Translations under genes and position numbers: made by a program
Notes under the pieces: model-generated
The model's input: the letters and a program-made list of their open reading frames with translations, nothing else
Told to the model about the DNA's origin: nothing
Database searches by the model: none
Part shown: positions 31,150-60,362 of the stretch, piece by piece
How positions within the stretch are numbered: the first letter of the stretch is position 1
Layout of the letters: every line of letters starts with the position of its first letter
Origin: Nitrospirota bacterium
Lineage (GTDB): Bacteria; Nitrospirota; Thermodesulfovibrionia; Thermodesulfovibrionales; UBA6898
DNA: 60,362 bases
Reading direction: 5' to 3'
Assembly (NCBI GenBank): GCA_004321925.1
Contig: SCQH01000024.1
Location: 1-60,362 of the forward strand

Positions 31150-31178
31150 TTGCGTGTCGGACCGGGATTGGCTATAGT
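31150..31178 (+). promoter_or_regulatory. putative sigma-70 promoter for tpsB-tpsA
   Basis: TTGCGT (31150-31155), 17-base spacer, TATAGT (31173-31178). The expected start near 31185 lies just before the AGGG ribosome-binding site and ATG 31201, and excludes the in-frame TTG at 31150 as a start codon. Confidence 0.5.
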
Positions 31179-31200
31179 ATGCTTAAACAGGGCGATGTCT

Positions 31201-32871: not shown

Positions 32872-35603
32872 AGACGGCAATACTATTTCTGATGCTTGTC
32901 TGTATGCCCTTCCTCTGCTGTCCTGCCGGTGCAGAGGTGGTCCTTGACGGCAGCATGGGCCGGTCCGGCCCTGTCAGCGGGCCGAACTTTCTGGTCTCCT
33001 CTGATATGGGGAGGCAGACCGGGGCCAACCTTTTTCACAGCTTTACCCGGTTCAATATCGGCAATACCGAGACAGCGACCTTTACCGGGCCTGAGAGCGT
33101 CAGGAATGTCATATCCCGGGTGACGGGCGGAAGTGTCTCGAATATCAACGGCCTGCTGCGGTCGACGATCCCGGGGGCTGATTTTTACTTTATCAATCCC
33201 GCAGGGGTATTTTTCGGCCAGGGGGCGGAACTCGATATCCATGGTTCATTTTATGTCAGTACTGCAGACTACCTGAGGCTCGGGACCGATGGCCGGTTCA
33301 ATGCAACAGATCCGGGGGAGAGCCTCCTGAGCACTGCCCCGCCTTCTGCCTTCGGTTTCCTGAGCCAGAACCCTGCGTCGATATTTGTCAATAACGCGAG
33401 GCTTGATGCCGCTGCCGGGAGAGATCTTTCTATCATAGGCGGGGACCTTGTCCTTGATAATGCCGTGCTCTTTGCGCCGGAGGGAAGGATAAACATCCTG
33501 AATGTCGCCTCTTCGGGAGAGATCCTGCCGGGTCAGCCTGACTGGAATGCCGGGTCGTTTTCGAGACTTGGCAGCAGCTTTGTGTATGGAGGATTTATCG
33601 TCACAAGCGGCGGGGAGGAGAGCGGCATATATATCAGGGGCGACGGTTTTTATGCGCGAGGTGCTGTCATAGAAGCCGGTACTGGTCTAGGTCCGGCAGG
33701 CGGCATGATCGACATCAAGCTGAACGATCTGTTGATCCTGGAAGGAGGCCTCCTCAGGACGATCACTGAAGGCGCAGGCCGGGGCGGCGAGTTAAAGCTG
33801 CGGGCACGCGGTCTGCTTCTTGCCGCGGGCGTATCAGCGGGGACAACCACCCTTGGAAGCGGAGACAGCGGAGATGTCATTATCAGTGTTGCCGAGAGGT
33901 TTGAAATATCAGGGACCGACCGGGATGGCTTCAGAAGCGCTCTCTTCAGTTTAGGCGGATCCGCCTCGACAGGGACGAGCGGGAAGATCTCGGTGTCTGC
34001 CCCTCTCCTTGACCTGGCGGACGGGGGGCTGATCACCACCAGCTCCGGATCAAGGGGACAGAGGGGTGACATCCATATCAGCGCCGACCATTTGACGCTC
34101 GCCACTAACAGCCGGATACAGGGCGGGAATATCCTCTTTGACGTCGGGACCCTCGAGATCAGCAGTGGTGCATTCATCTGGAGCCCTGCGCAGGGGCCTG
34201 ATGTCGGCCGCACGATCACGGTCAATGCACGGGAGTCCGTCCTGATCACCGGGGAGGGTCAGAATGAGGCGCCCTGGAAGAACAAGACAGAGCCGCTTTA
34301 TACCGGGATACACTCGGACGTATTTAGCAATGTAGACGGCAATGCCGGTGATATACATATTTCAAGCCCGCTGCTCAGGATAACAGACTCTGGCCAGATC
34401 GGCGCACGAACACATACCGACGGACACGGCGGAAATATCACTATCGATGCAGGAAAAGTGGAGCTGCTCTCCGGCGGACAGATCGCAGCAGACAGTTTCG
34501 GATCCTCCATCTTTGAAGGCCCGGCCGGTAATGTGACGATCAACGCCAGTGAGGAAGTCCTGATGTCAGGCAGTAATGGAGAGCTCTTCAGCGGCATTTC
34601 TTCGAGCACCCGGAGCGATGCGGACGCAGGCCGGATCTTTGTGAAGACCCCTCTGCTCCGGATGGAAGACCAAAGCAGTATCCTGGTGGCAACCGGGGTC
34701 TTCGGTGAAGGCAGAGCCGGGGACATCACGCTTGATGTCGGAAAGCTATCAATAGTATCAGGGGCCGCCATATCGAGCGCTTCAAGCGGACATGGGCAGG
34801 GAGGGTCGATCGATATAACCGCGTCCGGGTCTGTTGTGCTCGACAACGGAGTTATAACAAGTTTGGGGACCAGGTCAGGAGGGGCTGGAAATATCTCGAT
34901 AATAACCCCTTTACTGATATTAAAGGATGAAAGCGGGATCACAACACTTGCTTCGATACATTTAGCTACCGGAGAGCTCCCGGAGACCGATGCCGGAGAT
35001 ATAAGCATCAATGTCAACAACCTGGTTCTTTCCGAAGGATCGACGATTTCATCAGAGAGCCAGGGATATGGCAAGGCCGGATCAATTTCTATCATTGCCA
35101 GAGACAGAATAGAAAGTGCCAACAGTTCGATAACGACGGCTTCTTTTTTTTCAACAGGCGGCAATATCTCGGTCAGCAGCGGTGATGTAATTCTGACGCA
35201 GGGGAGTCACATTACTGCGACCGTGGGCGGCGGCAGTGGTAACGGCGGAAATGTCAGCATAAAGACAGATGCCCTGGCTGTGATCGAACAGAGCGACATC
35301 ACCGCAAAGGCGGACCAGGGTTTCGGCGGCAACATAACCATCCAGGCTCAGGCGGTGATCTTTTCGAATAACAGCGAGGCGAATGCCTCCTCGAATATCA
35401 GCGGCAAAGAAGGGACGGTCCGGGTCAATGCCCCTGATATCGACTTCAGCGGCTTCCTGGGTATCCTTCCCTCAAACTACCTGAATGCCGACCTGCTGCT
35501 TCCGAAGAGCTGCTCTGCACGGACAGGCGAACCGAACTCCTTTGTGATCGTCGGCCGGGATTCCCTGCCTCTCTCACCTGAGGGCTTTCTCCCCGCGCAG
35601 TAG
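32868..35603 (+). CDS. two-partner secretion exoprotein (TpsA, filamentous haemagglutinin-type)
   Basis: 911-residue exported protein. Signal peptide to about residue 22; TPS secretion domain (about 25-290) with RFNIGNTETATF and FINPAGVFFG, the haemagglutination-activity signature; then a long repeat-rich region of short beta turns (DISI, GNISI, GGNIT) expected to fold as a right-handed beta-helix. The C-terminus has a compact non-repetitive motif (LLPKSCS...FVIVGRDSLPLSPEGF) seen, to my knowledge, in many TpsA proteins of cyanobacterial type. Likely an adhesin or surface structural protein secreted by the upstream TpsB. Confidence 0.9.
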   Translation: MKTAILFLMLVCMPFLCCPAGAEVVLDGSMGRSGPVSGPNFLVSSDMGRQTGANLFHSFTRFNIGNTETATFTGPESVRNVISRVTGGSVSNINGLLRSTIPGADFYFINPAGVFFGQGAELDIHGSFYVSTADYLRLGTDGRFNATDPGESLLSTAPPSAFGFLSQNPASIFVNNARLDAAAGRDLSIIGGDLVLDNAVLFAPEGRINILNVASSGEILPGQPDWNAGSFSRLGSSFVYGGFIVTSGGEESGIYIRGDGFYARGAVIEAGTGLGPAGGMIDIKLNDLLILEGGLLRTITEGAGRGGELKLRARGLLLAAGVSAGTTTLGSGDSGDVIISVAERFEISGTDRDGFRSALFSLGGSASTGTSGKISVSAPLLDLADGGLITTSSGSRGQRGDIHISADHLTLATNSRIQGGNILFDVGTLEISSGAFIWSPAQGPDVGRTITVNARESVLITGEGQNEAPWKNKTEPLYTGIHSDVFSNVDGNAGDIHISSPLLRITDSGQIGARTHTDGHGGNITIDAGKVELLSGGQIAADSFGSSIFEGPAGNVTINASEEVLMSGSNGELFSGISSSTRSDADAGRIFVKTPLLRMEDQSSILVATGVFGEGRAGDITLDVGKLSIVSGAAISSASSGHGQGGSIDITASGSVVLDNGVITSLGTRSGGAGNISIITPLLILKDESGITTLASIHLATGELPETDAGDISINVNNLVLSEGSTISSESQGYGKAGSISIIARDRIESANSSITTASFFSTGGNISVSSGDVILTQGSHITATVGGGSGNGGNVSIKTDALAVIEQSDITAKADQGFGGNITIQAQAVIFSNNSEANASSNISGKEGTVRVNAPDIDFSGFLGILPSNYLNADLLLPKSCSARTGEPNSFVIVGRDSLPLSPEGFLPAQ

Positions 35604-47653: not shown

Positions 47654-48591
47654 TGATCCTCATCACAGACTTAAAGGCGCTTCCCCGCACCTTCAGCAAC
47701 AGCATTATTACGCTGGGTAATTTCGACGGTCTGCACCTCGGGCATCAGGAGCTTATTAAAAAAGTGATCGCGCGGGCAAAAGAGACCGGGGGGACCAGCA
47801 TGGTCGTGACGTTCCGTCCACATCCGCTGAAGATACTCTGCCCTGAAAAATGTCCGCCGCTCATCAGTATCTATGAGGAAAAGATCGGCCTCATCGAGGC
47901 CCTGGGCATCGATGTCCTGGTGAAGATACCCTTTACCCTCGAGTTTGCAAAGATGGCGCCTGAGGATTTTGTGAAGGATGTCCTCTTCGGCCTGCTCGGG
48001 GCAAAGGAGATATTCGTCGGCTACAATTACCGTTTCGGCAGGGACAGGGCCGGGAATATTGAGATGCTGAAGGACCTGGGCAGCCGCTACGGGTTTGCGG
48101 TCAGGCAGGTTGAGCAGATATCCCTGCGCGGTGAGGTGATCAGCAGTACGAAGATCAGGCATCTCCTGAGGGAGGGCGAGGTCGAGCAGGCTGCCCGTCT
48201 CCTGGGGAGAGATTATGCGATCACCGGGGTGGTGATCAGGGGCGACGGCAGGGGCAGGTCGCTTGGTTTCCCGACGGCGAACATCGCCCCGAAACATGCG
48301 ATCATCCCTTCCAACGGGGTCTATGCGGTCAGGCTCTTTGTGAGGGACCGGCTGTATGACGGGATAGCCAATATCGGCATGCGGCCGACCTTTGACAAAA
48401 AAACGCTCTCGATCGAGGCCTATATCTTTGATTTTGATGAGGACATATACGGGGAGGAGATCTCCGTTTTTTTTCTGAAGAAAATCAGGGATGAGATAAA
48501 ATTCAACGGCATTGACGAACTGATACAGCAGATCACGTCCGATATTGAAGCCTCCCGCCTGGTTCAGGCAGGCAGGGCAGGGCCTGCCTGA
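47653..48591 (+). CDS. ribF: bifunctional riboflavin kinase/FAD synthetase
   Basis: 312 residues. N-terminal FMN adenylyltransferase domain (LGNFDGLHLGHQELI, SSTKIRHLL) and C-terminal riboflavin kinase domain (GRGRSLGFPTANI, NIGMRPTF, IEAYIFDFDEDIYG). It converts riboflavin to FMN and FAD. Typical full length. Coupled to the upstream HD gene by a one-base TAATG overlap. Confidence 0.95.
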   Translation: MILITDLKALPRTFSNSIITLGNFDGLHLGHQELIKKVIARAKETGGTSMVVTFRPHPLKILCPEKCPPLISIYEEKIGLIEALGIDVLVKIPFTLEFAKMAPEDFVKDVLFGLLGAKEIFVGYNYRFGRDRAGNIEMLKDLGSRYGFAVRQVEQISLRGEVISSTKIRHLLREGEVEQAARLLGRDYAITGVVIRGDGRGRSLGFPTANIAPKHAIIPSNGVYAVRLFVRDRLYDGIANIGMRPTFDKKTLSIEAYIFDFDEDIYGEEISVFFLKKIRDEIKFNGIDELIQQITSDIEASRLVQAGRAGPA

Positions 48592-48597
48592 ACTCCA

Positions 48598-48623
48598 GCC
48601 AGGTTTATGGTATAATTCCTGGC
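48598..48623 (+). promoter_or_regulatory. extended -10 promoter within an inverted repeat, before the methyltransferase gene
   Basis: GCCAGG (48598-48603) and CCTGGC (48618-48623) flank TGGTATAAT, an extended -10 whose TATAAT is 48611-48616. Transcription would start near 48623, about 7 bases before ATG 48630, and no ribosome-binding site is visible. The repeat overlapping the -10 could be an operator. Confidence 0.5.
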
Positions 48624-48629
48624 CAAACC

Positions 48630-49394
48630 ATGAAGAACAAAATAATCAGAGAGCAGTTCAACAAACAGGCTGAAAAATTCTCGGAATTTTCATTTACCAA
48701 AAGCAGGGTCATCTATAAATTCATCTATGACTTCTGCCGGATCCAGCCCGGCGATACGCTCCTGGATGTGGCCTGCGGTTCCGGCGCCTTTGCCCTGTTC
48801 TGTGCTGAGAAGGTCAGGTCTGTTTGTGGCGTGGATATATCGGACAGATCAATCACCATGGCAGCCGATACTGCCCGGGGCAGGAACATTCAGAATGCCT
48901 CATTTATCCGCAGTGACGTAGAGGCGATTCCCGTGGCCGACGGATCATTTTCGATCGCAACCTGCAGGATGGCCTTCCATCATATGGGTAATTATCAAAA
49001 GGTTTTTTCAGAAATGGTCCGGTGCGTACAAAAAAACGGCAGGATCTGTATACAGGATATGACCGCCTGCGACCGGAAAGAGACGGATGATTATTTCGAA
49101 GAGATTGATAAACTTGTTGATATCAGTCATAACCGTTCCTTATCGAAAGCGGAAATAATCGATCTTTTTGATGGCCAGGGGGTCAGGATCCTGAATACCT
49201 TTGAAAGCCGGCATGAGTTTGAGATCAACGAGTATGCCAGTCATGCGATACAGGCCCCCGAGAATTTCGAGGCCTTGAACAGGCTTCTTGAAACCGGGCT
49301 GAACGATACAGCATTATCAGCATTGTTGTATAAGAAAGGTGACCAAACCTTTCTCAAGAAGGACGGCATCGTTGTCCTGGGAATAAAAGAATAG
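48630..49394 (+). CDS. SAM-dependent class I methyltransferase
   Basis: 254 residues, UbiE/Methyltransf_11-like. Motif I LLDVACGSGAFALF, VDISDRSI, and DGSFSIATCRMAFHHMGN with MVRCVQKNGRICIQDM are the SAM-binding core. The C-terminal 90 residues are family specific. It faces the PPTase/thioester-reductase operon and may methylate the product of that biosynthetic cluster, but it could equally be a separate housekeeping enzyme. Substrate unknown. Confidence 0.82.
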   Translation: MKNKIIREQFNKQAEKFSEFSFTKSRVIYKFIYDFCRIQPGDTLLDVACGSGAFALFCAEKVRSVCGVDISDRSITMAADTARGRNIQNASFIRSDVEAIPVADGSFSIATCRMAFHHMGNYQKVFSEMVRCVQKNGRICIQDMTACDRKETDDYFEEIDKLVDISHNRSLSKAEIIDLFDGQGVRILNTFESRHEFEINEYASHAIQAPENFEALNRLLETGLNDTALSALLYKKGDQTFLKKDGIVVLGIKE

Positions 49395-49426
49395 ACGAAA
49401 GGCCTGTTCTCTTGTCTGCCCGCGCG

Positions 49427-50203
49427 TCAATCCCTCCGGCCGGGCTGATCATCCGCAGTTGAAATATCAGGACCCTCATGGCAGTGTATTGCCCTGAAAT
49501 GTCCCCCTTCAACGACAAGTGCGGCAACATAACCCGGGGATGGTTCAAACGACAGGGCGGACCATGCCGGTGACGCCTTTCCGGGCCGGTCTTTTAGGAT
49601 CAGGGGTGCAGGGACGCCGCACGACCCTGAACAGGAAACCTCAAGCCCGTGGAGCCCGGCCAGTCCTTCCCCTGTTGCCTTGACATAGGCCTCCTTGAGG
49701 ACCCAGGCCTTGAAGAAGGCCTTTTCCCTTTCATCCGGAGGAAGAGAGTTGATAGCGGAGTGCTCGGCGGGGGTGAAGTAACGCTTTGTCAGCGGTGTCA
49801 GATTCTGTACCGGACGGATCTTTTCGAGATCTATGCCAACCGTCAGTTCTCGCGAAACAGCATACAGGGCCAGGTCTCCGGAGTGTGATATATTGAACTG
49901 AAAGCCGGGTGCACTGCTGGACAGGGAAGGCTTCCCTGTCCTCCCCGGGGAAAAGACCAGCTGTGCCGGATCAGTCTGCAGATATCCTCCGAGCACCTTC
50001 CGGAGAAGGCCGTGGCTGGCTACGAACCTCTGTTTAAGGGTTTCAGACCGAAGGCGGTCACAGCGCTGCTGCTCACCCGGAGAAAGAGTGCTGTAGAGCC
50101 TTTTGAGCAGGGGAGCAGGAAGCCCGAGAGGGATATGCCACACATGGACGGTTCCGCCCTCCAGGCGCAGGTCTGGGGCAGCCGGCTGCCTGGGAGATGG
50201 CAT
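49427..50203 (-). CDS. Sfp-type 4'-phosphopantetheinyl transferase
   Basis: 258 residues. Transfers phosphopantetheine from CoA to a Ser on acyl carrier proteins. The pseudo-dimeric fold is indicated by FNISHSGDLALYA, VGIDLEKI (metal-binding Asp/Glu) and FFKAWVLKEAYVKATGEGL. Sfp-type enzymes usually serve secondary metabolism, in contrast to AcpS. The likely client is the ACP at 54441, whose Ser40 site is intact. 46 bases after the reductase gene on the same strand. A TTG directly before ATG 50203 is an alternative start. Confidence 0.9.
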   Translation of the reverse strand: MPSPRQPAAPDLRLEGGTVHVWHIPLGLPAPLLKRLYSTLSPGEQQRCDRLRSETLKQRFVASHGLLRKVLGGYLQTDPAQLVFSPGRTGKPSLSSSAPGFQFNISHSGDLALYAVSRELTVGIDLEKIRPVQNLTPLTKRYFTPAEHSAINSLPPDEREKAFFKAWVLKEAYVKATGEGLAGLHGLEVSCSGSCGVPAPLILKDRPGKASPAWSALSFEPSPGYVAALVVEGGHFRAIHCHEGPDISTADDQPGRRD

Positions 50204-50252
50204 CAACGGTTACTGCTGATGCCGGGGGAGGAACATTCCCCGCGGCCGGGCT

Positions 50253-51446
50253 TCAGGGGCATTTCTCTTTGAGCCTCCTGCTTTTTAGGATCGCGGCCCG
50301 GTAATATTCATATTCCGGCAGGATGCGGGCCTTCCCCCAGGATGATTCCCTGCAGTATCGAAAGATCTGTTCCTTATAAGCTCCCCATGGCGGGGCGGAG
50401 ATACCGAACCGGGCAAGCATCGCCGCGGAATGCTCGGAATTGAATGGCGCCGATTTCCCCTCAAAATATGAGGTGTAGGGCATGCCGAGCTTCATGATAC
50501 CGAAATATTTCCTCGGTACCATATGCCGGAGAGGGGTCTGCAGGAGATAGTTGGCAAGCCAGATAGGCAGGAACGGTAATTTCTTCAGGTTCAAAGTTGT
50601 GCAGGCATCCCCGATGATTGTTCTCATTTGCACCTCGTTGCCTCTTCCGGCGGTGAGATGAAAGGTCTTGCCCAGGCTTTCGTCATCCTGCATCAGGGCA
50701 ACGATCGCATCAGCGACAAAATCCGACGGCACAATATCGACCCTGGCACCGCCTGACCCAGGGATAAAGTACCGGGGGATCCCGTCTGCCAGGATCTTCA
50801 GCGGCCAGTAGAGCATGCTGAAGCTGCTGACATAACCGGTGCAGGAATCTCCGATCACGATAGAGGGGCGGTAAACCGCGGCCGGCAGCCTCGTGCCATA
50901 TTCCCGGACCAGCAGTTCGGCTTCAAACTTGCTCTGCTCATAGGGATTGGCAAAGGTCTGTCCGCGGTCCAGGTCCTGTTCCGTGGCTTCGCGTTTATGC
51001 ATCCCGGCTACGTACGCAGTCGAAACGTAATCGAATCGTTTCAGCCTGCCCTCTTTGCTGCAGGCCGTTGCCAGTGCAAGCACCTTTTCTGTCCCGCCGA
51101 CATTGATCTTTCGTGCCGTTTCGATCGGGGAGCCAAAATCGGTTATGGCCCCCAGATGCAGGATCTGGTCCACAGAATGCACGAGTTCACTCCGGTCATC
51201 AGCCGACAGGCCCAGCTCCGGCAGGACAAAATCGCCGGAAACCGCTTTTATTTTCCCCGCAGCCAACGGGACAAGCTCAGGGGGCACAATAGTCCGCAAA
51301 AGCTCATCTCTGCGCTCTGCGACCGATCTTCTGTGCGACGGCCGCAAGAGCAGGTAAATTGTTTCGTACTGCGGATCATCAATCAGCCGCGCTACGATCA
51401 ACTTGCCAATAAAACCGCTGCCGCCAGTAATAAATATCTTCTGCAT
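50253..51446 (-). CDS. NAD(P)-binding thioester-reductase-like SDR (NAD_binding_4 type)
   Basis: 397 residues. Extended SDR with FITGGSGFIGKLIVARL, HLGAITDF, NVGGTEKVLALA, and catalytic YEQSK (YxxxK). The pattern resembles fatty acyl-CoA reductases and carrier-protein thioester reductases, which release acyl chains as aldehyde or alcohol using NADPH. The C-terminal 90 residues are not membrane spanning. ATG 51446 starts the Rossmann fold; an in-frame GTG-type start at 51476 adds ten unconserved residues. Together with the PPTase and the divergent FAS genes it suggests a reduced lipid product; an epimerase-like role cannot be excluded. Confidence 0.78.
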   Translation of the reverse strand: MQKIFITGGSGFIGKLIVARLIDDPQYETIYLLLRPSHRRSVAERRDELLRTIVPPELVPLAAGKIKAVSGDFVLPELGLSADDRSELVHSVDQILHLGAITDFGSPIETARKINVGGTEKVLALATACSKEGRLKRFDYVSTAYVAGMHKREATEQDLDRGQTFANPYEQSKFEAELLVREYGTRLPAAVYRPSIVIGDSCTGYVSSFSMLYWPLKILADGIPRYFIPGSGGARVDIVPSDFVADAIVALMQDDESLGKTFHLTAGRGNEVQMRTIIGDACTTLNLKKLPFLPIWLANYLLQTPLRHMVPRKYFGIMKLGMPYTSYFEGKSAPFNSEHSAAMLARFGISAPPWGAYKEQIFRYCRESSWGKARILPEYEYYRAAILKSRRLKEKCP

Positions 51447-51626
51447 AATTATCGGGGGTGAACCCGGACCTGACACTGCCCTGTATCCCGGCTCACTCGT
51501 TGAAAAGGGAATTTATGGATATCCTCTTAATAAATATGAAATTAACGACGCAAATATTATATATTATCATGGACGTTATTATGTTTAATTTTATACGGAT
51601 CGTTAAATGCGAGAGAGGCTTCATCG
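51447..51626. promoter_or_regulatory. divergent AT-rich promoter region between reductase and ligase genes
   Basis: 180 bases that become markedly AT-rich over about 51500-51605, with several weak -10-like hexamers (TATCAT at 51571, preceded 17 bases upstream by TTAACG). No conserved operator was recognised. GAGAGAGG at 51611-51618 is the ribosome-binding site for the TTG-initiated ligase gene. Confidence 0.4.
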
Positions 51627-53273
51627 TTGGTAAACCTGCTGAAAACTATGCCTGATCGGACAATAAGCGAGGGCTTGTCTGACCGTATCTACGGGACGAT
51701 CAGCCGGTATCCTCAAAAAGTGCTCTTATCTGATGAGTCGGTAGATTTTACCGGAGACGATATACACGCCTTTATCAGTGAGATCAGGCCCCTTATAACG
51801 ATCTTTTCACAGAGGCGCGGGAGGATCGGGATATTAATTCCGAATTCGGCTGTATTGGCAGTGGCAATTCTGGCTGTAATTGCGCTGGGACGGATACCGG
51901 TAATCCTCAATTCATCTGCGCGGAGAGAACAGGTCGAGGCCTTACTACCGGCCTTGAACCTCGACCTCCTGATCGTGTCAAAGGCGGCATACCCGGAGCT
52001 CGATAGCGCCTGCAATATCGTGAGCATAACCATGTCCGGCTGCATGACGTTCATTCAAAGGGACGGGCCCGGAAGATGGCATAAACTGCCCCGTGAGGGG
52101 ACGGCGATCATTCTGTATACCTCCGGCTCGGAAGGCGAGCCAAAGGGGGTGCAGCTCTCTGGTCCGGGGATCAGTTACACGATAAACCATCTGATCGATT
52201 ATTTTGAACTCGACGGATCGACGGTCTCGGCCTGCATCATGCCTCTGTGCCATACCATGGGCCTCAATACGCAATTTTTGCCGGTCTTCTTTGCAGGGGG
52301 GAGGTCTGTTTTTTTTGAGATAGCCATGAGCCTGGGGAAGATATACCGGCAGATCATACAGGCAGAAGCCACGTTTGCAGGCCTGATCCCGGAATTTTTG
52401 CAGCTCTGTTATGAGGAAAAAATGCGGCGGGGCATTGAACCTGCCCTGAATGTCCGGCATCTGCAGATCGCCGGGGGGCCCATCCGGGAGGACCACCTGC
52501 GCAGGGCCATGCACCTTTTCCCTCATGCGGTCGTTCACAAGGGATATGGTTTGACCGAGGCCATACGGGTATCATCGATCAGCAGCTCGGACCCCCTGTT
52601 TTTCGGCAATAACGAAGGGTATGTCCTGCCCGGGCAGACGGTGGTAATACGTGATGAGGCAGGGAATGTCCTGCCCGCCGGCAGTATCGGGAGGATCCAC
52701 GTAAAAGGCTCAAATGTCATGCTGGGCTATGACAATGACACTATCGACGCACCGGTTACCGACGGGTTTCTGAATACCGGAGACCTGGGGTCTTTAACGC
52801 CTGACAACTGCCTCTTCATTCATGGGAGGCACGACAGCATCTTTAAGATAAGCGGGGAGCGCATTTCGGGTTACGAGATAGAAAACGCCGCCCGTGCCAT
52901 ATCGGCATACTTTCGGGATGTCAGATGCCTGCCTCTGGAGCGTTCCGGAAGAGTGCGGCCTGTCTTATTTGTGGAACTGAGCCAGGTCCCGCCGGCAGAC
53001 GCTTTTGCGGAACTCAGGCTCGGGTTCGGCAGGCAGCTGTTACAGCGCCTCGGTCATAAGCTCAAAATGCCCGGTGACATCTATTTTATGGAGAATTTCC
53101 CCCGGACACATAACGGCAAGATTCGCAATAAGGAGCTTAAAAATATAATAATAGATGAACGTGCAGAATATCTCGGCACTGACGGGGGGCTTCGTTTCTT
53201 TTTCGTACCGGGATGCAGCGGGAAACATTTATGCGGAGAGGGCAACAGAGATGCGATGGATATTTGTAGATAA
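51627..53273 (+). CDS. AMP-binding acyl-CoA/acyl-ACP ligase
   Basis: 548 residues of the ANL superfamily. Core motifs: LYTSGSEGEPKGV (P-loop-like A3), GYGLTEAI (A5), LNTGDLGS (A7), GRHDSIFKISGERISGYEIE (A8) and HNGKIRNKEL with the A10 Lys. It adenylates a carboxylate and loads it onto CoA or a carrier protein, here probably the ACP at 54441. TTG 51627 is chosen because GAGAGAGG lies 8 bases upstream; ATG 51648 has no such site. The C-terminal 40 residues overlap the next gene and look unconserved. Substrate unknown. Confidence 0.85.
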   Translation: MVNLLKTMPDRTISEGLSDRIYGTISRYPQKVLLSDESVDFTGDDIHAFISEIRPLITIFSQRRGRIGILIPNSAVLAVAILAVIALGRIPVILNSSARREQVEALLPALNLDLLIVSKAAYPELDSACNIVSITMSGCMTFIQRDGPGRWHKLPREGTAIILYTSGSEGEPKGVQLSGPGISYTINHLIDYFELDGSTVSACIMPLCHTMGLNTQFLPVFFAGGRSVFFEIAMSLGKIYRQIIQAEATFAGLIPEFLQLCYEEKMRRGIEPALNVRHLQIAGGPIREDHLRRAMHLFPHAVVHKGYGLTEAIRVSSISSSDPLFFGNNEGYVLPGQTVVIRDEAGNVLPAGSIGRIHVKGSNVMLGYDNDTIDAPVTDGFLNTGDLGSLTPDNCLFIHGRHDSIFKISGERISGYEIENAARAISAYFRDVRCLPLERSGRVRPVLFVELSQVPPADAFAELRLGFGRQLLQRLGHKLKMPGDIYFMENFPRTHNGKIRNKELKNIIIDERAEYLGTDGGLRFFFVPGCSGKHLCGEGNRDAMDICR

Positions 53274-53715
53274 GATCATAGAGATGGACCCCGGAAAATC
53301 AGCGGTCGCAGTCCGGAACTTCTCACGCTCAGAACTGTTCTTCCTGGACCATTTCCCCGGGTTTCCTCTTGTTCCCGGGGTGCTGCAGATCGAAATGATC
53401 GCGCAGCTCGGAGGCAAATGTGTCATGGCGGGGCATCCCGGCATCATGCCGGTCCTTGGTTCAGTGAAGAGCGCCAAGTTCTATCATAAAATAGTGCCGG
53501 GGGACCAGGCCGTTATTAAGGTCGAGATTACGGTCCGCACGTCCTTTACGATGGCTCAGGGCCGGATAGAGGTTGACGGCAACAGGGTTTCAGCGGCAGA
53601 GGTCATCCTTGCGCACCTTCCGGCGCCTGAGGATCTTATCAGAAAAAAAATGGCAGGCGACGGGTTTGGTGACTGGCTGCAAGCGGGGGGACATGGGTCG
53701 GATCCAGTGGTGTGA
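53251..53715 (+). CDS. FabZ-like 3-hydroxyacyl-ACP dehydratase
   Basis: 154 residues of hot-dog fold. The catalytic pair is intact: His34 in LDHFPGFPLVPG and Glu48 in LQIEMIAQLGG. Length matches FabZ. It would dehydrate the 3-hydroxyacyl intermediate made by the cluster ketoreductase. ATG 53251 follows GAGAGG; it overlaps the ligase gene by 23 bases and the next gene by 23. An in-frame start at 53155 lies in the ligase gene and is rejected. Confidence 0.87.
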   Translation: MRWIFVDKIIEMDPGKSAVAVRNFSRSELFFLDHFPGFPLVPGVLQIEMIAQLGGKCVMAGHPGIMPVLGSVKSAKFYHKIVPGDQAVIKVEITVRTSFTMAQGRIEVDGNRVSAAEVILAHLPAPEDLIRKKMAGDGFGDWLQAGGHGSDPVV

Positions 53716-54451
53716 TGCGTTGCTGCCCGGAGAGGACATCCCGGCCGGGGAGTTCATATCTGAATATTATGACGGGAAGATACGCCTGGAAAAAGCCAGG
53801 GCACTCCCTCTGATCGACAGACAGGCCGAGCTTCCTGACCGCAGGGTCTATCGTTCGATGAGCAGGGCCGGCATCCTGCTCTCTCTGGTCTGTTTAAAGG
53901 CCAGGGAAGAACTCAGTGGTTTCCTCCGGCAGGACCCCTTCAGGGTCGGGATCTACTGTGCCATTGAAAATGGCCCTGTTGATTTTGCGTCGACAAAGCA
54001 GATGGTTGGCGTACCCGGTGAGGCTTTTGCCGAAACGTACAAAAAACTTTTTAATCCGAAGATGTACCTGCGGCAGTTGCCGAATCTGGCGGCAAGCCAG
54101 ATGGGGATCTTCCTGAACATACTGGGGCCGCTGCATGTCTTTAATAACTCCCTGTATGGCAGTCTCCATGCCCTGCAGCAGGCCGAGCTTGACCTTGCTG
54201 ACGACAGGGTCAATGCAGCCCTGATATGCAGTGCCTTCAGTTTTGAGAATCCGCTGATCCTGGAGCGCACCCGCAGGTCGGTCCTGAAGGGACGTGTGCT
54301 TTGTGAAGGCTCCGGCGCGATGCTGCTCGTGCCTGGCGGCGAGGAGAACACATGGCATGACATGGACTATGAAAATACCGGAGAATATTTCGGCATAAGC
54401 CATCAGATAATCAGTCAAATAATGAAAAGGAGGACCCAACATGACAACTGA
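53693..54451 (+). CDS. half-size ketosynthase-like protein lacking catalytic residues
   Basis: 252 residues resembling only the N-terminal half of a beta-ketoacyl synthase: SRAGILLSLVCLKA, GIYCAIENGP, and GPLHVFNNSLYGSLHALQQAELDLADDRVNAALICSAFSF in separate segments. Where ketosynthases have the nucleophilic Cys, the sequence around residues 153-156 has Ser-Leu-Tyr-Gly, and the C-terminal half with both active-site His is absent. It is not broken by a frameshift: a GGGGGG site precedes ATG 53693 and both neighbours overlap it. It could be a chain-length-factor-like partner of the active KS at 54727. Confidence 0.7.
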   Translation: MGRIQWCDALLPGEDIPAGEFISEYYDGKIRLEKARALPLIDRQAELPDRRVYRSMSRAGILLSLVCLKAREELSGFLRQDPFRVGIYCAIENGPVDFASTKQMVGVPGEAFAETYKKLFNPKMYLRQLPNLAASQMGIFLNILGPLHVFNNSLYGSLHALQQAELDLADDRVNAALICSAFSFENPLILERTRRSVLKGRVLCEGSGAMLLVPGGEENTWHDMDYENTGEYFGISHQIISQIMKRRTQHDN

Positions 54452-54722
54452 AGAGGAACTTTTTCTCCAGGTGGCAGATGCCGTCCGTGCGGTACTGAAC
54501 ACTGAAGAGGGTGAGATCAAGATGGAGAGCATGTTCCGTGCTGATCTTAATACAGAAAGCATCGATTTTCTCGACATCAGTTTCGAGATCGAGAAGCGGA
54601 CCGGGGTAGAACTGGATTTCCCGGCAGTGCTTAAGTTTATCATGGAGAAAAAAGGCTCGGAAATAACTGATTTTTCCGTAGCAGATCTTGTCGGTTACCT
54701 GAGCCACGTAAAGAACTCATAA
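54441..54722 (+). CDS. acyl carrier protein
   Basis: 93-residue acidic protein with the phosphopantetheine attachment site at Ser40 (LNTESIDFLD), the DSL-like motif read here as ESI, followed by the typical helix SFEIEKRTGVELDF. Expected to be primed by the PPTase at 49427 and to carry the growing chain. AGGAGG lies 6 bases before ATG 54441, inside the end of the previous gene; the KS gene starts 4 bases after its stop. Confidence 0.92.
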   Translation: MTTEEELFLQVADAVRAVLNTEEGEIKMESMFRADLNTESIDFLDISFEIEKRTGVELDFPAVLKFIMEKKGSEITDFSVADLVGYLSHVKNS

Positions 54723-54726
54723 TCGT

Positions 54727-55959
54727 ATGAACAGTGTGGTGATAACCGGATGCGGCCTGATAACCCCTCTGGGCAATAGTATCGGTGAGTTTGAGCGCAG
54801 GATGTTTGCCGGGGATTCCGGCATCAGGGATATCCGTGGAACGCTGGTCGCCGATAATTTCCCCGTGCCTTTTGCCGGGATCATCGACGATACGGGCCTG
54901 CCCTCGGCAGAGGCCCTCGGCCTCCCCTCCGGGAGGAACAGCCGGGGCCTGCGGTATGCCGTGCTTGCGACACGCCAGGCAGTGCATGATTTCCCGGAGG
55001 GCCTGCCTCTGGACGGGATCATCTACGGGACCCCGGGTGGTGTTTTCTTTGAGCTAGTGGTCGATACCTACCGGGATATTGATACTGACAGGATTCAGTG
55101 GAACCGGAGCAGGGCCGAATATCTGCTGGAAGTCATGGCCAAAGATCTGGCAGAACGGGGTCACGGAGAAATAGCTCCCGAGCGGCTCATCAGTATCAAC
55201 TCTGCCTGCGCAAGCGGTATCCACTGTATCGGCATGGCCTTTCAGTTCCTGAAAGCAGGCCTGTGGCAGCGCTGCATCGTGGGAGGCATCGATGCCGGGG
55301 CCTGGGAAAGCAGCCTGATGAACTTTCACCTGCTGAACGCACTGACGACCGCTGACGTCCCTGCAGGGGAGGCCAGCAGACCTTTTTCCCCCGACAGGTC
55401 CGGGTTTGTCAAGAGCGAGGCAGCGGCCACCCTGCTCATGGAAACCCGGAAGTCTGCCGAGCAGCGGGGGGCGAGGATACTTGCCGAGGTCTGTGGGTTT
55501 GGGCTGACCTCTGACGCCTATCGCCTGACCGACGGTCGCGAGGATAATCTCAGTGTGATCAGGGCGATGGAGCAGGCAATTGAAACAGCAGGCATTCAGA
55601 AAGAAGATATTGATTATATCAGTGCCCATGGGACCTCCACGCAGCTCAATGACAGGCTGGAAACCATGGCAATAAAAAAAGTATTCGGGGATCATGCCTA
55701 TAAGATCCCGGTCAGCTCCTTAAAGTCGCAGACCGGCCACCCTACGGTGGCTTCGGGGGCAATGGAGACGGTGGCCTGCATCCTGATGTTTCAGCGGCAG
55801 AGACTGGCCCCTACGATCAACTTTAGGGCCGGCGACCCGGAATGCGATCTGGACTATGTCCCGCATAAGAGCCGGCCGGCAGAAGTGAAATATATTCTGA
55901 ACAATGCCTTTGGCTTTGGCGGGCAGAACGCATGTATCGTATTGAGGAAGGCGGACTGA
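54727..55959 (+). CDS. beta-ketoacyl-ACP synthase (FabF-like), catalytically complete
   Basis: 410 residues. Thiolase-fold condensing enzyme with Cys161 (NSACASG), His301 (SAHGTST), Lys333 and His338 (SLKSQTGH) and the C-terminal NNAFGFGGQNA, the full Cys-His-His set of elongating KS I/II enzymes. It would condense malonyl-ACP with the acyl chain in this cluster. Divergence from housekeeping FabF in the N-terminal 150 residues, and its neighbours, favour a specialised pathway. Confidence 0.92.
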   Translation: MNSVVITGCGLITPLGNSIGEFERRMFAGDSGIRDIRGTLVADNFPVPFAGIIDDTGLPSAEALGLPSGRNSRGLRYAVLATRQAVHDFPEGLPLDGIIYGTPGGVFFELVVDTYRDIDTDRIQWNRSRAEYLLEVMAKDLAERGHGEIAPERLISINSACASGIHCIGMAFQFLKAGLWQRCIVGGIDAGAWESSLMNFHLLNALTTADVPAGEASRPFSPDRSGFVKSEAAATLLMETRKSAEQRGARILAEVCGFGLTSDAYRLTDGREDNLSVIRAMEQAIETAGIQKEDIDYISAHGTSTQLNDRLETMAIKKVFGDHAYKIPVSSLKSQTGHPTVASGAMETVACILMFQRQRLAPTINFRAGDPECDLDYVPHKSRPAEVKYILNNAFGFGGQNACIVLRKAD

Positions 55960-55960
55960 A

Positions 55961-56725
55961 ATGGTAAAGCGTTTGGCGCTTATCACCGGCGGGACCTCGG
56001 GCATCGGGCTTGGTGCTGCGCGAAAGCTTGCGCCCTCATGTGACCTTGCCCTGGCCTATGCAGGCAATCATGAAAGGGCTGAGAAGGCACGGCAGGAGTT
56101 TGAGGCGCTGGGGGTGCATGCAGAGATCTTTGCCCGGCCTCTGGGATCCTATGAAGATGCCGGGGAACTGCTGGAGCAGGTGAAATCGTCATATAAGCGA
56201 TCCCCCGATATCCTGGTGAACTCAGCAGGCAGCATACATGACGGATTCTTCATGACCACTGATTTTGCCCATCACGAAAAGATAATCAGGGAGCATCTTG
56301 TCGTGACCATGGCCTTATGCCACCTCACGGTCAAGGGAATGTACGGAAATAAGTTCGGCAGGATAGTGAACCTGAGTTCGATAAGCGGCTCGTATGCAAA
56401 AAGGGGACAGACCAGCTATGCAGCTGCCAAGGCAGCGATCACCGGGTTCACCAAGACCCTGGCCCTGGAGGTCGCCCACAGGGGAATAACCGTTAACGCC
56501 GTTGCCCCCGGTCTGATCGCTACGCCGATGACAGAGGGGATAATGCAATTCCTCGAAAAAGATCCAAAGAGGACGATCAAGAAGGTCGTCCCCGCCGGAT
56601 ATGCGGGGACCACCGAGGATGTCGGCAGCCTGATCGCCTTTTTATGCTCGGATGAGGCCCGGTATATTACGGGGGCGCTCATGGTCATAGATGGCGGCAG
56701 GTCTTTGGGAGACCCGGGCTCATGA
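55961..56725 (+). CDS. 3-oxoacyl-ACP reductase (FabG-like SDR)
   Basis: 254 residues. Classical SDR: TGGTSGIGLG cofactor motif, NSAG, catalytic Ser in NLSSISG, and Tyr/Lys in SYAAAK (YxxxK), plus MVIDGGRS at the C-terminus. The YxxxK spacing and VNAVAPGLIATPMT fit a ketoreductase acting after the KS at 54727. One base separates it from the KS gene and it overlaps the next gene by 4. Confidence 0.88.
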   Translation: MVKRLALITGGTSGIGLGAARKLAPSCDLALAYAGNHERAEKARQEFEALGVHAEIFARPLGSYEDAGELLEQVKSSYKRSPDILVNSAGSIHDGFFMTTDFAHHEKIIREHLVVTMALCHLTVKGMYGNKFGRIVNLSSISGSYAKRGQTSYAAAKAAITGFTKTLALEVAHRGITVNAVAPGLIATPMTEGIMQFLEKDPKRTIKKVVPAGYAGTTEDVGSLIAFLCSDEARYITGALMVIDGGRSLGDPGS

Positions 56726-57474
56726 TGGACCTCAGCGGGAAAAATGCGGTGATCACCGGCGGCACGCGCGGCATAGGGAGGGCGATCGCCCTGGACCTTG
56801 CCGGATGCGGCGCCCGTGTCTATGCCCTGTATGCCCGGGACCGCAAGAGCGCAGAGGCCCTTGAGCAGGAGGCAGGTCATAAAGGCCTGGGAATAATAAC
56901 GATCCGCGGCGACCTGGCACGGCAGGAGACCTTTCAGGCCTCAGTTGATCAGGTCAAAGAGGCCTGTGAGACCATAGACATCCTTGTCCATGCAGCGGCC
57001 AGCGGGGTCCACAAAAGCGCCATGGAACTCACGGACAGGCATATGCGCTGGACCTTCGATATCAACTTTTTTGCCGTGCATAAACTGACGGTGGCTTTGA
57101 TCGGGAAGATGAAGAAAGGCGGCCGCATTATTGGTGTTACGTCGCCCGGAGGCGAGCGGGTCATCCCGCATTATGCGGCGATCGGGGCCAGCAAGGGGGC
57201 ACTTGAAGCCCTTTTCAGACATTATGCCCGGGAGCTTGCCCCTCAGGGGATCATGGTGAACCTTGTCTGCCCGGGCATGGTCATGACCGATGCAGCGCAG
57301 GCATTTCCCCAGCTCGCTGAGAGGTTGGCCATGACCCTCGAATATACGCCTACCGGGGACCTGACGAGGCCGGAACAGGTTGCGGCACTGGTGAGGTTCC
57401 TCTGCAGTGAAGAGGCTAAACAGATAGTCGGTCAGACGCTCGTGATGGACGGTGGAAAGGGTTTGCTGGCCTAG
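56722..57474 (+). CDS. enoyl-ACP reductase, FabL-like SDR
   Basis: 250 residues. SDR with TGGTRGIGRA and C-terminal LVMDGGKGLL. The active-site spacing is Tyr-x6-Lys (HYAAIGASK), the signature of FabI/FabL enoyl reductases, not the Tyr-x3-Lys of ketoreductases. The following ALEALFRHYARELAP resembles Bacillus FabL. It would saturate the enoyl intermediate, so the cluster encodes a complete elongation and reduction cycle. Confidence 0.82.
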   Translation: MMDLSGKNAVITGGTRGIGRAIALDLAGCGARVYALYARDRKSAEALEQEAGHKGLGIITIRGDLARQETFQASVDQVKEACETIDILVHAAASGVHKSAMELTDRHMRWTFDINFFAVHKLTVALIGKMKKGGRIIGVTSPGGERVIPHYAAIGASKGALEALFRHYARELAPQGIMVNLVCPGMVMTDAAQAFPQLAERLAMTLEYTPTGDLTRPEQVAALVRFLCSEEAKQIVGQTLVMDGGKGLLA

Positions 57475-57510
57475 TCTTCCATCCCCCGTTTCATTCTTCC
57501 CGCGGGGTGG

Positions 57511-58638
57511 ATGGTGAAGAGGCCCTCCCCGGGATTAAGCAGGGTATGCAGCCTTTTCCTCCTCTTCCACCTCGGTCTGCTTTTCAGCGGTTGTTCCCAC
57601 ACGGGTGCACTGCAGGAACAGGAGATTCAGGGCAGCTCAACTGCATATTGGCCTGTTGGCAGCTGGCGGACCTCCTCCCCTGAAGCTCAGGGCATCGACC
57701 CCCAAAAGATCTCTGCCATGATACGTGACATCAGGGCCGGGCAGAAAAAGATCCATAGTCTGCTCATCGTGAGAAACGGGTATCTCATTACAGAAGAGTA
57801 CTTCCCCCCGTATAGTAAAGATTCCGGGCATATGCTGTATTCCTGCACAAAGAGCGTAATCTCAGCCCTTGTGGGGATAGCTGTCAGCGACGGGTTCATA
57901 AAGGGTCTGGATGAAAAGGTGACCGGTTATTTTACGGACCTGGACATTGACAATAAGGACGGACGAAAGGATGCCATAACCATAAAGCATCTTCTTGAGA
58001 TGTCGGCCGGGCTTGACTGGGTTGAAGACGGCAATTACGGCAGCCCCGCAGATTCAGTGACCCGGATGCGGCTCAGCGGGGACCAGATCAAGTTCGTCCT
58101 TGACCGGCCCATGAAAGAGGACCCGGGCAAGACCTTTTATTACTGCAGCGGTGCTTCCCACCTGTTGTCCGGGATCCTTCAACGGACCACAGGGAGAAGC
58201 TCTTTTGAATACGGCAAACAGAGATTATTCGACCCCCTGGGGATCAAAGATATTTCATGGACGTCGGATGAGGACGGGATCAGTAACGGCGCTGACGGCA
58301 TAAGTATGACACCGGCTGACATGGCACGGTTCGGATATCTCTTCCTGAGAAACGGCAGATGGAACAACAGGCAGGTCGTCCCGGCAGTGTGGGTAGCAGA
58401 GTCGACGAAAACACATATCGATACCCCTGACGGGCTTGCAGGCAGGTATGGATACGGTTACCAGTGGTGGAGGAACAGATTCGGCGGATACTCAGCCCGG
58501 GGATACGGTGGCCAATATATCTTTGTTATCCCCGAATATGACATGGTCATTGTCTTTACCGGGGAACTGTCTTTGCGTGACCTTTTCTTGCCAGAGAACC
58601 TGGTAGAGGCATATCTAATATCCGCTGTTATTTTCTAA
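57511..58638 (+). CDS. lipoprotein serine hydrolase, class C beta-lactamase family
   Basis: 375 residues. A signal peptide ends in lipobox LFSGC (Cys28), so an outer- or inner-membrane lipoprotein is expected. The beta-lactamase/esterase fold shows SxxK as SCTK (residues about 110-113), and YCS (in FYYCSGASHL) in place of YxN; the third motif is replaced by GYGGQY. Such proteins include esterases, D-amino peptidases and transacylases (LovD/EstB type). It follows the enoyl reductase gene by 36 bases and may finish or transfer the acyl product. Function unknown. Confidence 0.83.
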   Translation: MVKRPSPGLSRVCSLFLLFHLGLLFSGCSHTGALQEQEIQGSSTAYWPVGSWRTSSPEAQGIDPQKISAMIRDIRAGQKKIHSLLIVRNGYLITEEYFPPYSKDSGHMLYSCTKSVISALVGIAVSDGFIKGLDEKVTGYFTDLDIDNKDGRKDAITIKHLLEMSAGLDWVEDGNYGSPADSVTRMRLSGDQIKFVLDRPMKEDPGKTFYYCSGASHLLSGILQRTTGRSSFEYGKQRLFDPLGIKDISWTSDEDGISNGADGISMTPADMARFGYLFLRNGRWNNRQVVPAVWVAESTKTHIDTPDGLAGRYGYGYQWWRNRFGGYSARGYGGQYIFVIPEYDMVIVFTGELSLRDLFLPENLVEAYLISAVIF

Positions 58639-58694: not shown

Positions 58695-60362
58695 ATGAAG
58701 AAGGTAACCCGACGGCAGTTTCTCAAGGTTTCGGCAGGGACCATCGGCACGGCTGTTGCCCTGGAGGCAGCTGGCCTGGGATTGGATATGGCCGGAGCGC
58801 AGGAGCGTTCTCTGAGCATGCCGATCAAGAAGGGAAAGCAGGTCCCCAGTGTCTGCCCCTTCTGCTCTGTCGGCTGCGGCCAGATCGTCATGGTGGACGA
58901 TTCGGGCAAGATCATCGATATCCAGGGGAATCCGGACTCCCCCTTAAGCGAGGGGACCCTTTGTCCCAAGGGGGCCGCGACGTATCAACTCGTCATGAAC
59001 GAGCATCGCTGGACAAAGGTCAAATACCGCGCGCCGGGCAGCGACCACTGGGAAGAGAAAACGCTTGAGTGGGCGATGAACCGTGTGGCCGAACTGGTCA
59101 AAAAGACGCGGGACGCGAACTTTAACGAGTTTGAGGATGTCCCTGACAGCAAAGGCAAACCGGTCAAAAAACGGGTCATGAACACCTATTCGATCGCCTC
59201 TCTCGGGGGAGCGACCATCGACAATGAATGGAACTACACCCATCAGAAACTGATGCACGGCCTGGGGATCATCTATGTTGAAAACCAGGCACGAATATGA
59301 CACTCTTCCACTGTCCCCGGTCTGGGGGTAAGTTTTGGCCGCGGGGGTTCCACAACCTTTCCGCGTGATCTTGTAAACTCTGATGCCGTCATGATCATGG
59401 GCTCGAACATGGCCGAATGCCATCCGGTAGCCTTCCGCTGGCCGCTGAAGGCCAAGACAGACCACGGCGCTGTGCTGATGCATGTCGATCCCCGATTCAC
59501 CCGTACCTCGGCGCTTTGCGACATACATGCTCAGATCAGGGCCGGGTCAGACATTGTCTTCCTCGGGGCGCTGATCAGCCATGTCATCAACAGCGAACGC
59601 TGGAACACGGACCCGTTCTTCAAAGAGTATGTTGCCAATTATACGAATGCCGCAACCCTTGTGCATCCTGACTTCAAGGACACCGAGGACCTCGACGGAC
59701 TCTTCTCCGGCATGTCCGCGGACGGCAAGGTCTACTCGCGTGAGACCTGGTCTTACCAGCGAAATCCTGCGCCCAAGTCTCCGGTCACCGACCCCAAGAC
59801 CTTCACCGATCTCCTCCTTCAGCGGATCCCGGGACGGCCGAAGACCGATCCGACGCTGAAGGATCCGCAGTGCGTCTTCCAGATCGTCAAAAAGCACTAC
59901 AAGAGATATACGCCTGAAATGGTGGAGCGGGTATGCGGCTGTTCGAAAGAGGCGTTCCTGAAGGTCGCCGAAACGCTCCTGAAGAACTCCGGCAGGGACC
60001 GGACCTCCAATATCACCTATGCGGTGGGCTGGACCCAGCACACGGTCGGCGTCCAGATAATCCGGACCGCAGGCATGCTCCAGGCCCTGCTCGGCAACAT
60101 CGGCAGACCGGGGGGAGGCGTGCTGGCGCTCCGCGGACATTCGACGATCCAGGGTTCTACCGATATCGCAACGCTGTATCACTCGCTGCCGGGCTACCTT
60201 AATATGCCCGATGCCCGGATCGCCCACGATTCGCTGAAGGACTTCATCCTGACCGAGGCAGGTCCTGTCTCGACGAGCTACTGGGGCAACTATCCGAAAT
60301 TTGCTGTCTCGTATTTCAAGGCCCAGTTCGGTGACGCTGCAACGAAAGAGAACGACTATGGG
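58695..60362 (+). CDS. fdnG: formate dehydrogenase major (alpha) subunit, selenocysteine-containing, 3' truncated by window
   Basis: 556 codons are visible and the gene runs off the window. Twin-arginine signal TRRQFLKVSAG marks export of the folded protein. A 4Fe-4S cluster is ligated by Cys54, Cys57, Cys61 and Cys90 (CPFCSVGC...C), followed by the molybdopterin-binding core. An in-frame TGA at 59298-59300 (codon 202) sits in VENQARI-U-HSS, the position of Sec in FdnG-type enzymes, and the frame continues with SFGRGGSTTFPRD and MGSNMAECHPV. ATG 58695 is chosen for AAGGAGG 10 bases upstream; an upstream GTG is rejected. It oxidises formate in the periplasm and feeds quinone-linked respiration. 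Confidence 0.95.
59298..59338 (+). promoter_or_regulatory. bacterial SECIS element with in-frame UGA (Sec) codon
   Basis: TGA at 59298-59300 is followed 18 bases later by the loop GGTCT (59319-59323), closed by CCCC (59315-59318) and GGGG (59324-59327) and extended by T-G, G-T and T-A pairs to 59312/59330. The GGU(C/U) apical loop and the spacing match the SelB-binding hairpin of E. coli fdhF as I recall it. Reading through at this UGA requires selABCD, not visible here. Confidence 0.9.

Follow-up and report, generated by a model that had tools for sequence, protein, structure and literature searches.

What does a compact cluster of type II fatty acid synthase/polyketide synthase (FAS/PKS)-like genes build in a member of the phylum Nitrospirota, and how would the chain leave its carrier? 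The cluster occupies positions 48630-58638 of contig SCQH01000024.1, whose entire 60,362 nt are referred to here as the window, and it had been singled out, from the sequence alone, as a specialised lipid system. Our analysis gives good support to the conclusion that six of its genes (53251-57474, plus strand), encoding a dehydratase (DH), a half-size ketosynthase-like protein (half-KS), an acyl carrier protein (ACP), a ketosynthase (KS), a ketoreductase (KR) and an enoyl reductase (ER), make up a type II chain builder that is dedicated and fully reducing, and whose half-size partner resembles a chain-length factor (CLF). Full reduction of each unit, the chain length and the product are what we infer from there on.

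All genes named in the original prediction were found as intact open reading frames (ORFs) near the positions proposed for them, and Pfam and NCBIfam agreed with the named families. Alignments showed that the catalytic residues of the core enzymes are kept. In the FabZ-like DH (53251..53715; PF07977, 3.6e-16; start taken from homologues), the His and Glu of the hotdog motif HFPxxP...GVLxxExxAQ are conserved, and so is the Ser of the SID motif in the dedicated ACP (54441..54722; PF00550, 3.7e-4), which lies within DLNTESIDFLDI and is also found in the 10 other loci described below. The FabF-like KS (54727..55959; TIGR03150, 2.1e-99, under the equivalog cut-off) is the only full-length KS of the cluster, and its Cys161, His301, Lys333 and His338 are invariant in 11 loci. 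The FabG-like KR (55961..56725; TIGR01830, 1.2e-58) retains its Y-x3-K motif in 12 loci, and the Y-x6-K motif of the FabL-like ER (56722..57474) is present in 12 out of 12. This ER matched the FabL model NF005975 (7.3e-68) with a score of 228.6, which does not reach the curated equivalog cut-off of 328 bits. Its best solved relative in a PDB search was the NADPH enoyl-ACP reductase 3oic (4.9e-43), which we take to be FabL of Bacillus subtilis. The housekeeping fabG-fabF genes sit separately in the genome, in agreement with the view of a specialised type II system that has an ACP of its own, uses an ER of the FabL type and is distinct from housekeeping FAS.

The half-KS (53693..54451) was the least recognisable member of the core. 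It matched no Pfam or NCBIfam model, and a PDB sequence search with the half-KS alignment returned no match; a Chlorobium homologue did match PF00109 (E 7e-5), and homologues are 53-58% identical to the window protein. Its predicted model, of moderate confidence (pLDDT 59, pTM 0.62), adopts a ketosynthase fold that superimposes on FabF 8z5e (VIA Z 17.2, 242 residues, rmsd 4.2) and on the ishigamide KS/CLF entry 6kxf_B (Z 16.9), and Foldseek matches include ApeC (6qsp chain B). Profile alignment placed a Leu, variable among homologues, at the position of the catalytic Cys, and the protein is devoid of the C-terminal half. Because the nucleophilic Cys is absent, the protein first noted as half a KS is better regarded as CLF-like than as a catalytic fragment. 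A precedent is the CLF of aryl polyene (APE) systems, which consists of a single thiolase fold and reaches roughly half the size of the KS that it accompanies (PMC8358021). Adjacency and conserved gene order suggest that the KS pairs with the half-size protein.

A half-KS scan of ∼85,000 species genomes yielded ten loci, all in metagenome-assembled genomes of Chlorobiaceae, and in every one of them (10/10) the DH, half-KS, ACP, KS, KR and ER genes appear in the order of the window, with ∼52-67% protein identity. Among 394 sampled genomes of the phylum of the Chlorobiaceae, ten gave strong matches. Within the window's own phylum, the half-KS was present in 2 of 396 genomes; the only strong match beyond the window genome came from a genome of the same class, G311 (58%). 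The half-KS was absent from all 60 relatives examined in the window's own group, the six core genes were absent from the four congeners of the window genome, and a plasmid collection contained no match to the half-KS or the ligase and only distant matches to the reductase (both described below). Since the six genes keep the same order across phyla, we consider chance excluded as the source of the gene set. The conserved unit is nevertheless smaller than the eleven genes that had been expected to co-occur, as only these six do so elsewhere; the phosphopantetheinyl transferase, methyltransferase and lipoprotein hydrolase genes of the window were not beside the module in any other locus.

The G311 module (locus L013, 9235-13168) has the same gene order, but a deletion fuses the ACP to the end of the KS, a TGA interrupts the half-KS stretch and the accompanying type III PKS gene is broken by frameshifts, so that the module looks decayed or badly assembled. 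The cluster proteins are 73-76% identical to those of G311 (KS fragment, KR and ER) and 58-61% identical to those of Chlorobiaceae (KS), values close to those of the housekeeping FabF of the window genome, which is 72% identical to its G311 counterpart and 55-56% identical to those of Chlorobiaceae. Recent transfer between the window lineage and Chlorobiaceae, which we considered, is therefore not supported by identity, and an old transfer and repeated loss of the module both remain as candidate histories. In a KR tree the window sequence was nearest to that of G311, with weak support (90/61), and Chlorobiaceae were not resolved against the two. As for the genomic site, the GAF-HD-ribF genes upstream of the cluster are common to the congeners, and DNA similarity to all four of them ends near the end of ribF (window ∼48504-48533). 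After ribF, three congeners share a gene set starting with a dGTPase-like gene, and the fourth carries restriction-modification-like genes (by reading). The stretch just after ribF (48504-48630) is variable, since congeners and window genome continue differently there. To the right of the cluster, a formate dehydrogenase gene begins at ∼58695 and the contig runs out at 60362.

The surroundings of the module in Chlorobiaceae point to a destination for the chain. An AcpS gene precedes the core in these loci, and genes for LolD, an FtsX/LolE-like protein, a LolA_like protein and a predicted outer-membrane protein follow it in every locus that is long enough; a LolD/FtsX/LolA-like export set is also found behind the module in G311. 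Type III PKS-like genes accompany the module in G311 and in 9 of the 10 Chlorobiaceae loci, lying among the export genes in eight of these and upstream of the core in the ninth, L014; the L015 stretch showed none. The encoded proteins form two groups. The Cys-His-Asn triad is present in L018, L021 and G311, and the canonical protein of L018 had its best PDB match in 3vs9/3vs8 (1.1e-106), titled 'Type III polyketide synthase' and presumably ArsC of Azotobacter. Seven full copies (L014, L016, L017, L018, L020, L022 and L023) carry Gln in place of the triad His; L018 thus carries both forms. Because of this substitution, a phenolic-lipid product is a reasonable guess only for the Cys-His-Asn group. 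Taken with the export genes, the builder in Chlorobiaceae and G311 probably serves outer-membrane phenolic or related lipids. A search of the open-access literature turned up no paper that connects type III PKS lipids with green sulfur bacteria.

None of these partners, neither the type III PKS nor the export set, adjoins the core in the window. Instead, the DH gene is preceded by that of an AMP-forming acyl ligase (51627..53273, plus strand; PF00501, 6.3e-45), which possesses the C-terminal lysine of the GKI motif, has weak PDB relatives of the CoA ligase/nonribosomal peptide synthetase (NRPS) type and, at E<=1e-60, is matched by nothing in the remaining 395 of the 396 genomes of the phylum. 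On the minus strand lies a gene for a thioester-reductase-like short-chain dehydrogenase/reductase (SDR) with NAD_binding_4 as its sole domain (50253..51476). It passed the PF07993 cut-off with ease (191 bits versus 20.1; 2.2e-56), its TIGR01746 score (143.7 bits, 8.4e-42) did not reach the curated cut-off of 213.35 bits, and its best solved relative was the MxaA terminal reductase 4u7w (2.9e-28). In the five Chlorobiaceae genomes searched, only distant SDR matches and no close homologue of the reductase were detected. G311 has a 35% match, encoded on contig C29 (L065, 4594-13465) a few genes past a KR-CLF-ACP-DH-KS set, with unrelated genes between and also a CrtI-like oxidoreductase (by reading); a reductase of this kind thus occurs near a type II system in one further, though weaker, instance. 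An open-access literature search found no paper on a type II FAS with a thioester reductase cluster of this kind. Judging by family membership and adjacency, the ligase would most likely prime or reload the ACP and the reductase would set the chain free as an aldehyde or alcohol, a plausible division of labour.

These elements combine into the explanation that we place first, although we hold it to be evenly poised between right and wrong: a dedicated builder with ligase priming and reductive release. According to this explanation, the adjacently encoded Sfp/HetI-type 4′-phosphopantetheinyl transferase (PPTase) (49427..50206, minus strand; PF01648, 5.9e-18; PF22624, 8.5e-9; best NCBIfam match HetI, 187 bits, under the cut-off of 370) would activate the cluster's own ACP. 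The KS, together with the half-size CLF-like protein, would then extend malonyl units on this ACP, the KR, DH and FabL-like ER would reduce each unit fully to give a saturated acyl-ACP, the ligase would load a starter or a recycled acid, and the thioester-reductase-like SDR would release the chain as aldehyde or alcohol. Several points speak against this explanation. The ligase and reductase genes are unlinked to the module in every other genome found, the reductase gene runs on the strand opposite to the core, SDRs of the standalone NAD_binding_4 kind are widespread and, as said above, the score of this one as a thioester reductase stays under the curated cut-off. In addition, the half-KS model is of moderate confidence.

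A broader version, which we hold to be less likely than not, is that the six-gene saturated-chain builder is portable and serves as a front end that can be swapped between pathways. Its chain would pass, in green sulfur bacteria, to enzymes of the type III PKS-like group and on to an exporter of the Lol type, as a type II counterpart of the hand-over from a type I FAS to a type III PKS in Azotobacter, and in the window the builder would deliver it to a ligase and reductase resembling a split carboxylic acid reductase, yielding a fatty aldehyde or alcohol. A LolD-FtsX-LolA set on contig C99 of the window genome was tried as the missing exporter and rejected: its proteins are 33-53% identical, it has no outer-membrane protein, and it sits beside a NosL-like gene and unrelated genes (by reading).

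The strongest alternative keeps the same builder and denies the ligase and reductase any part in priming or release; the chain would go to an acceptor, for example through the probable lipoprotein encoded downstream (57511..58638, plus strand) acting as an acyltransferase, and the reductase would act on another substrate. This lipoprotein, an accessory candidate of uncertain role, carries a beta-lactamase-fold hydrolase/acyltransferase domain (PF00144, 1.2e-38), its gene begins ∼37 bp past the ER stop and its best NCBIfam relative, NF045925, is a succinyl-transferring beta-lactamase-fold enzyme (1.2e-54, sub-cut-off); the location of the reductase gene on the other strand also fits. However, a lipoprotein would sit outside the cytoplasm, apart from the acyl-ACP, and its gene is not beside the module elsewhere, so we judge this route unlikely.

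Less probable still is an accessory FAS that makes no special product and, in certain conditions, supplies the ordinary lipids of the membrane. By NCBIfam the KS, KR, DH and ER are all FAS-like, but a dedicated, divergent ACP and a CLF-like partner, the patchy distribution and the linkage to specialised genes both here and in Chlorobiaceae make it a poor fit. We also considered a phenolic lipid as in the Chlorobiaceae version: the cluster would supply the alkyl chain, and the type III PKS would be encoded at a distant locus. Despite the type III PKS-like genes that accompany the homologous module in nearly all Chlorobiaceae loci and in G311, searches of the window genome, whose listed completeness is 100%, revealed no such enzyme: PF00195 gave just a sub-cut-off match, and PF02797 and the L018 protein gave none. 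Unless the gene is missing from the assembly, this possibility is largely refuted. Equally improbable is a polyene system, of the aryl polyene or another type: the half-size CLF, FabZ-like DH and dedicated ACP resemble the APE type, but the Y-x6-K motif of a FabL-type ER is conserved in all loci, and no acyltransferase, ammonia-lyase or second full KS is among the cluster genes.

The layout of the cluster differs in some respects from that first proposed. The two operons, described as facing each other, are divergent: the reductase starts at 51476 on the minus strand and the ligase at 51627 on the plus strand, with a 150-bp intergenic region between them (51477..51626). A promoter scan of this region gave matches not clearly above chance across it. 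Gene overlaps do exist, but they are smaller than the longest ORFs imply (23, 23, 11 and 4 nt), because homologues set the DH start at 53251 and the half-KS start at 53693. The gene count had omitted a class I S-adenosylmethionine (SAM) methyltransferase (UbiE/Methyltransf_11-like; 48630..49394, plus strand; PF13847, 2.9e-21; PF08241, 9.8e-21) that falls within the coordinates of the cluster; its gene is convergent with that of the PPTase and its membership of the cluster is uncertain. The lack of a malonyl transferase, from which a shared FabD had been supposed, was borne out among the cluster genes; fabD itself was not searched for genome-wide.

Other loci were seen during the analysis. The window genome contains a second type II system on contig C51 (L012, 9520-18871) with an SDR, an ACP, four KS/CLF-type genes, two FabZ-like DH, a KR and an LpxL-like acyltransferase (by reading); in congener G001 two KS genes lie ∼3 kb apart on contig C129 and may be the counterpart of this system. 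Elsewhere in the window, positions 58695-60359 encode a molybdopterin formate dehydrogenase with an N-terminal Tat signal and an in-frame TGA that codes for selenocysteine (residue 202, ARIUH), the gene being truncated where the contig stops. Two adjacent ORFs at 31150-35603 resemble the transporter of a two-partner secretion system and an exoprotein of the haemagglutinin type (by reading).

In line with the original suggestion that the cluster is apparently undescribed, no description of its gene set was found in the open-access literature. If our reading is true, a half-size chain-length factor works here within a type II system that reduces its chain fully, a pairing for which that literature likewise gave no description, and one can ask directly how the length of a saturated chain is set by a factor of this size. 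The Chlorobiaceae loci would also point to an apparently undescribed lipid pathway, with an outer-membrane export route, in uncultured green sulfur bacteria. That two phyla combine one builder with different release enzymes would, if true, show how interchangeable parts are put together into specialised lipid pathways.

Among known systems, the closest is the APE KS-CLF system ApeO-ApeC, which is also of type II and shares with the window a CLF of about half the KS size with one thiolase fold, a FabZ-type DH, a FabG-type KR and its own ACP (PMC8358021). The enzymes described for APE clusters are KS-CLF, KR and DH, whereas the window has an ER, which bears out the proposed distinction between the two; moreover, APE systems use two KS enzymes, ApeO-ApeC and the FabB-like ApeR (PMC8358021), and the window encodes one full KS, no aromatic starter genes or acyltransferase, and a half-KS that sequence models of Pfam and NCBIfam do not recognise. 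The window ER shares the Y-x6-K motif with Bacillus subtilis FabL, its best solved relative (3oic), from which it differs in its sub-cut-off score and in being encoded inside a specialised cluster. In the Ars system of Azotobacter vinelandii, type I FAS genes flank two type III PKS genes; their products make the fatty chain of the phenolic lipids and hand it to the type III PKS (PMC3098273 and references therein). The builder of Chlorobiaceae and G311 likewise lies beside type III PKS-like genes, but it consists of separate type II proteins rather than a type I FAS, and the window cluster is without a type III PKS. Finally, carboxylic acid reductases and the terminal reductase domains of NRPS/PKS systems such as MxaA offer the parallel of an AMP ligase, a carrier protein and an NAD_binding_4 reductase, all present in the window, where, unlike in those fused enzymes, they are separate proteins whose coupling is predicted.

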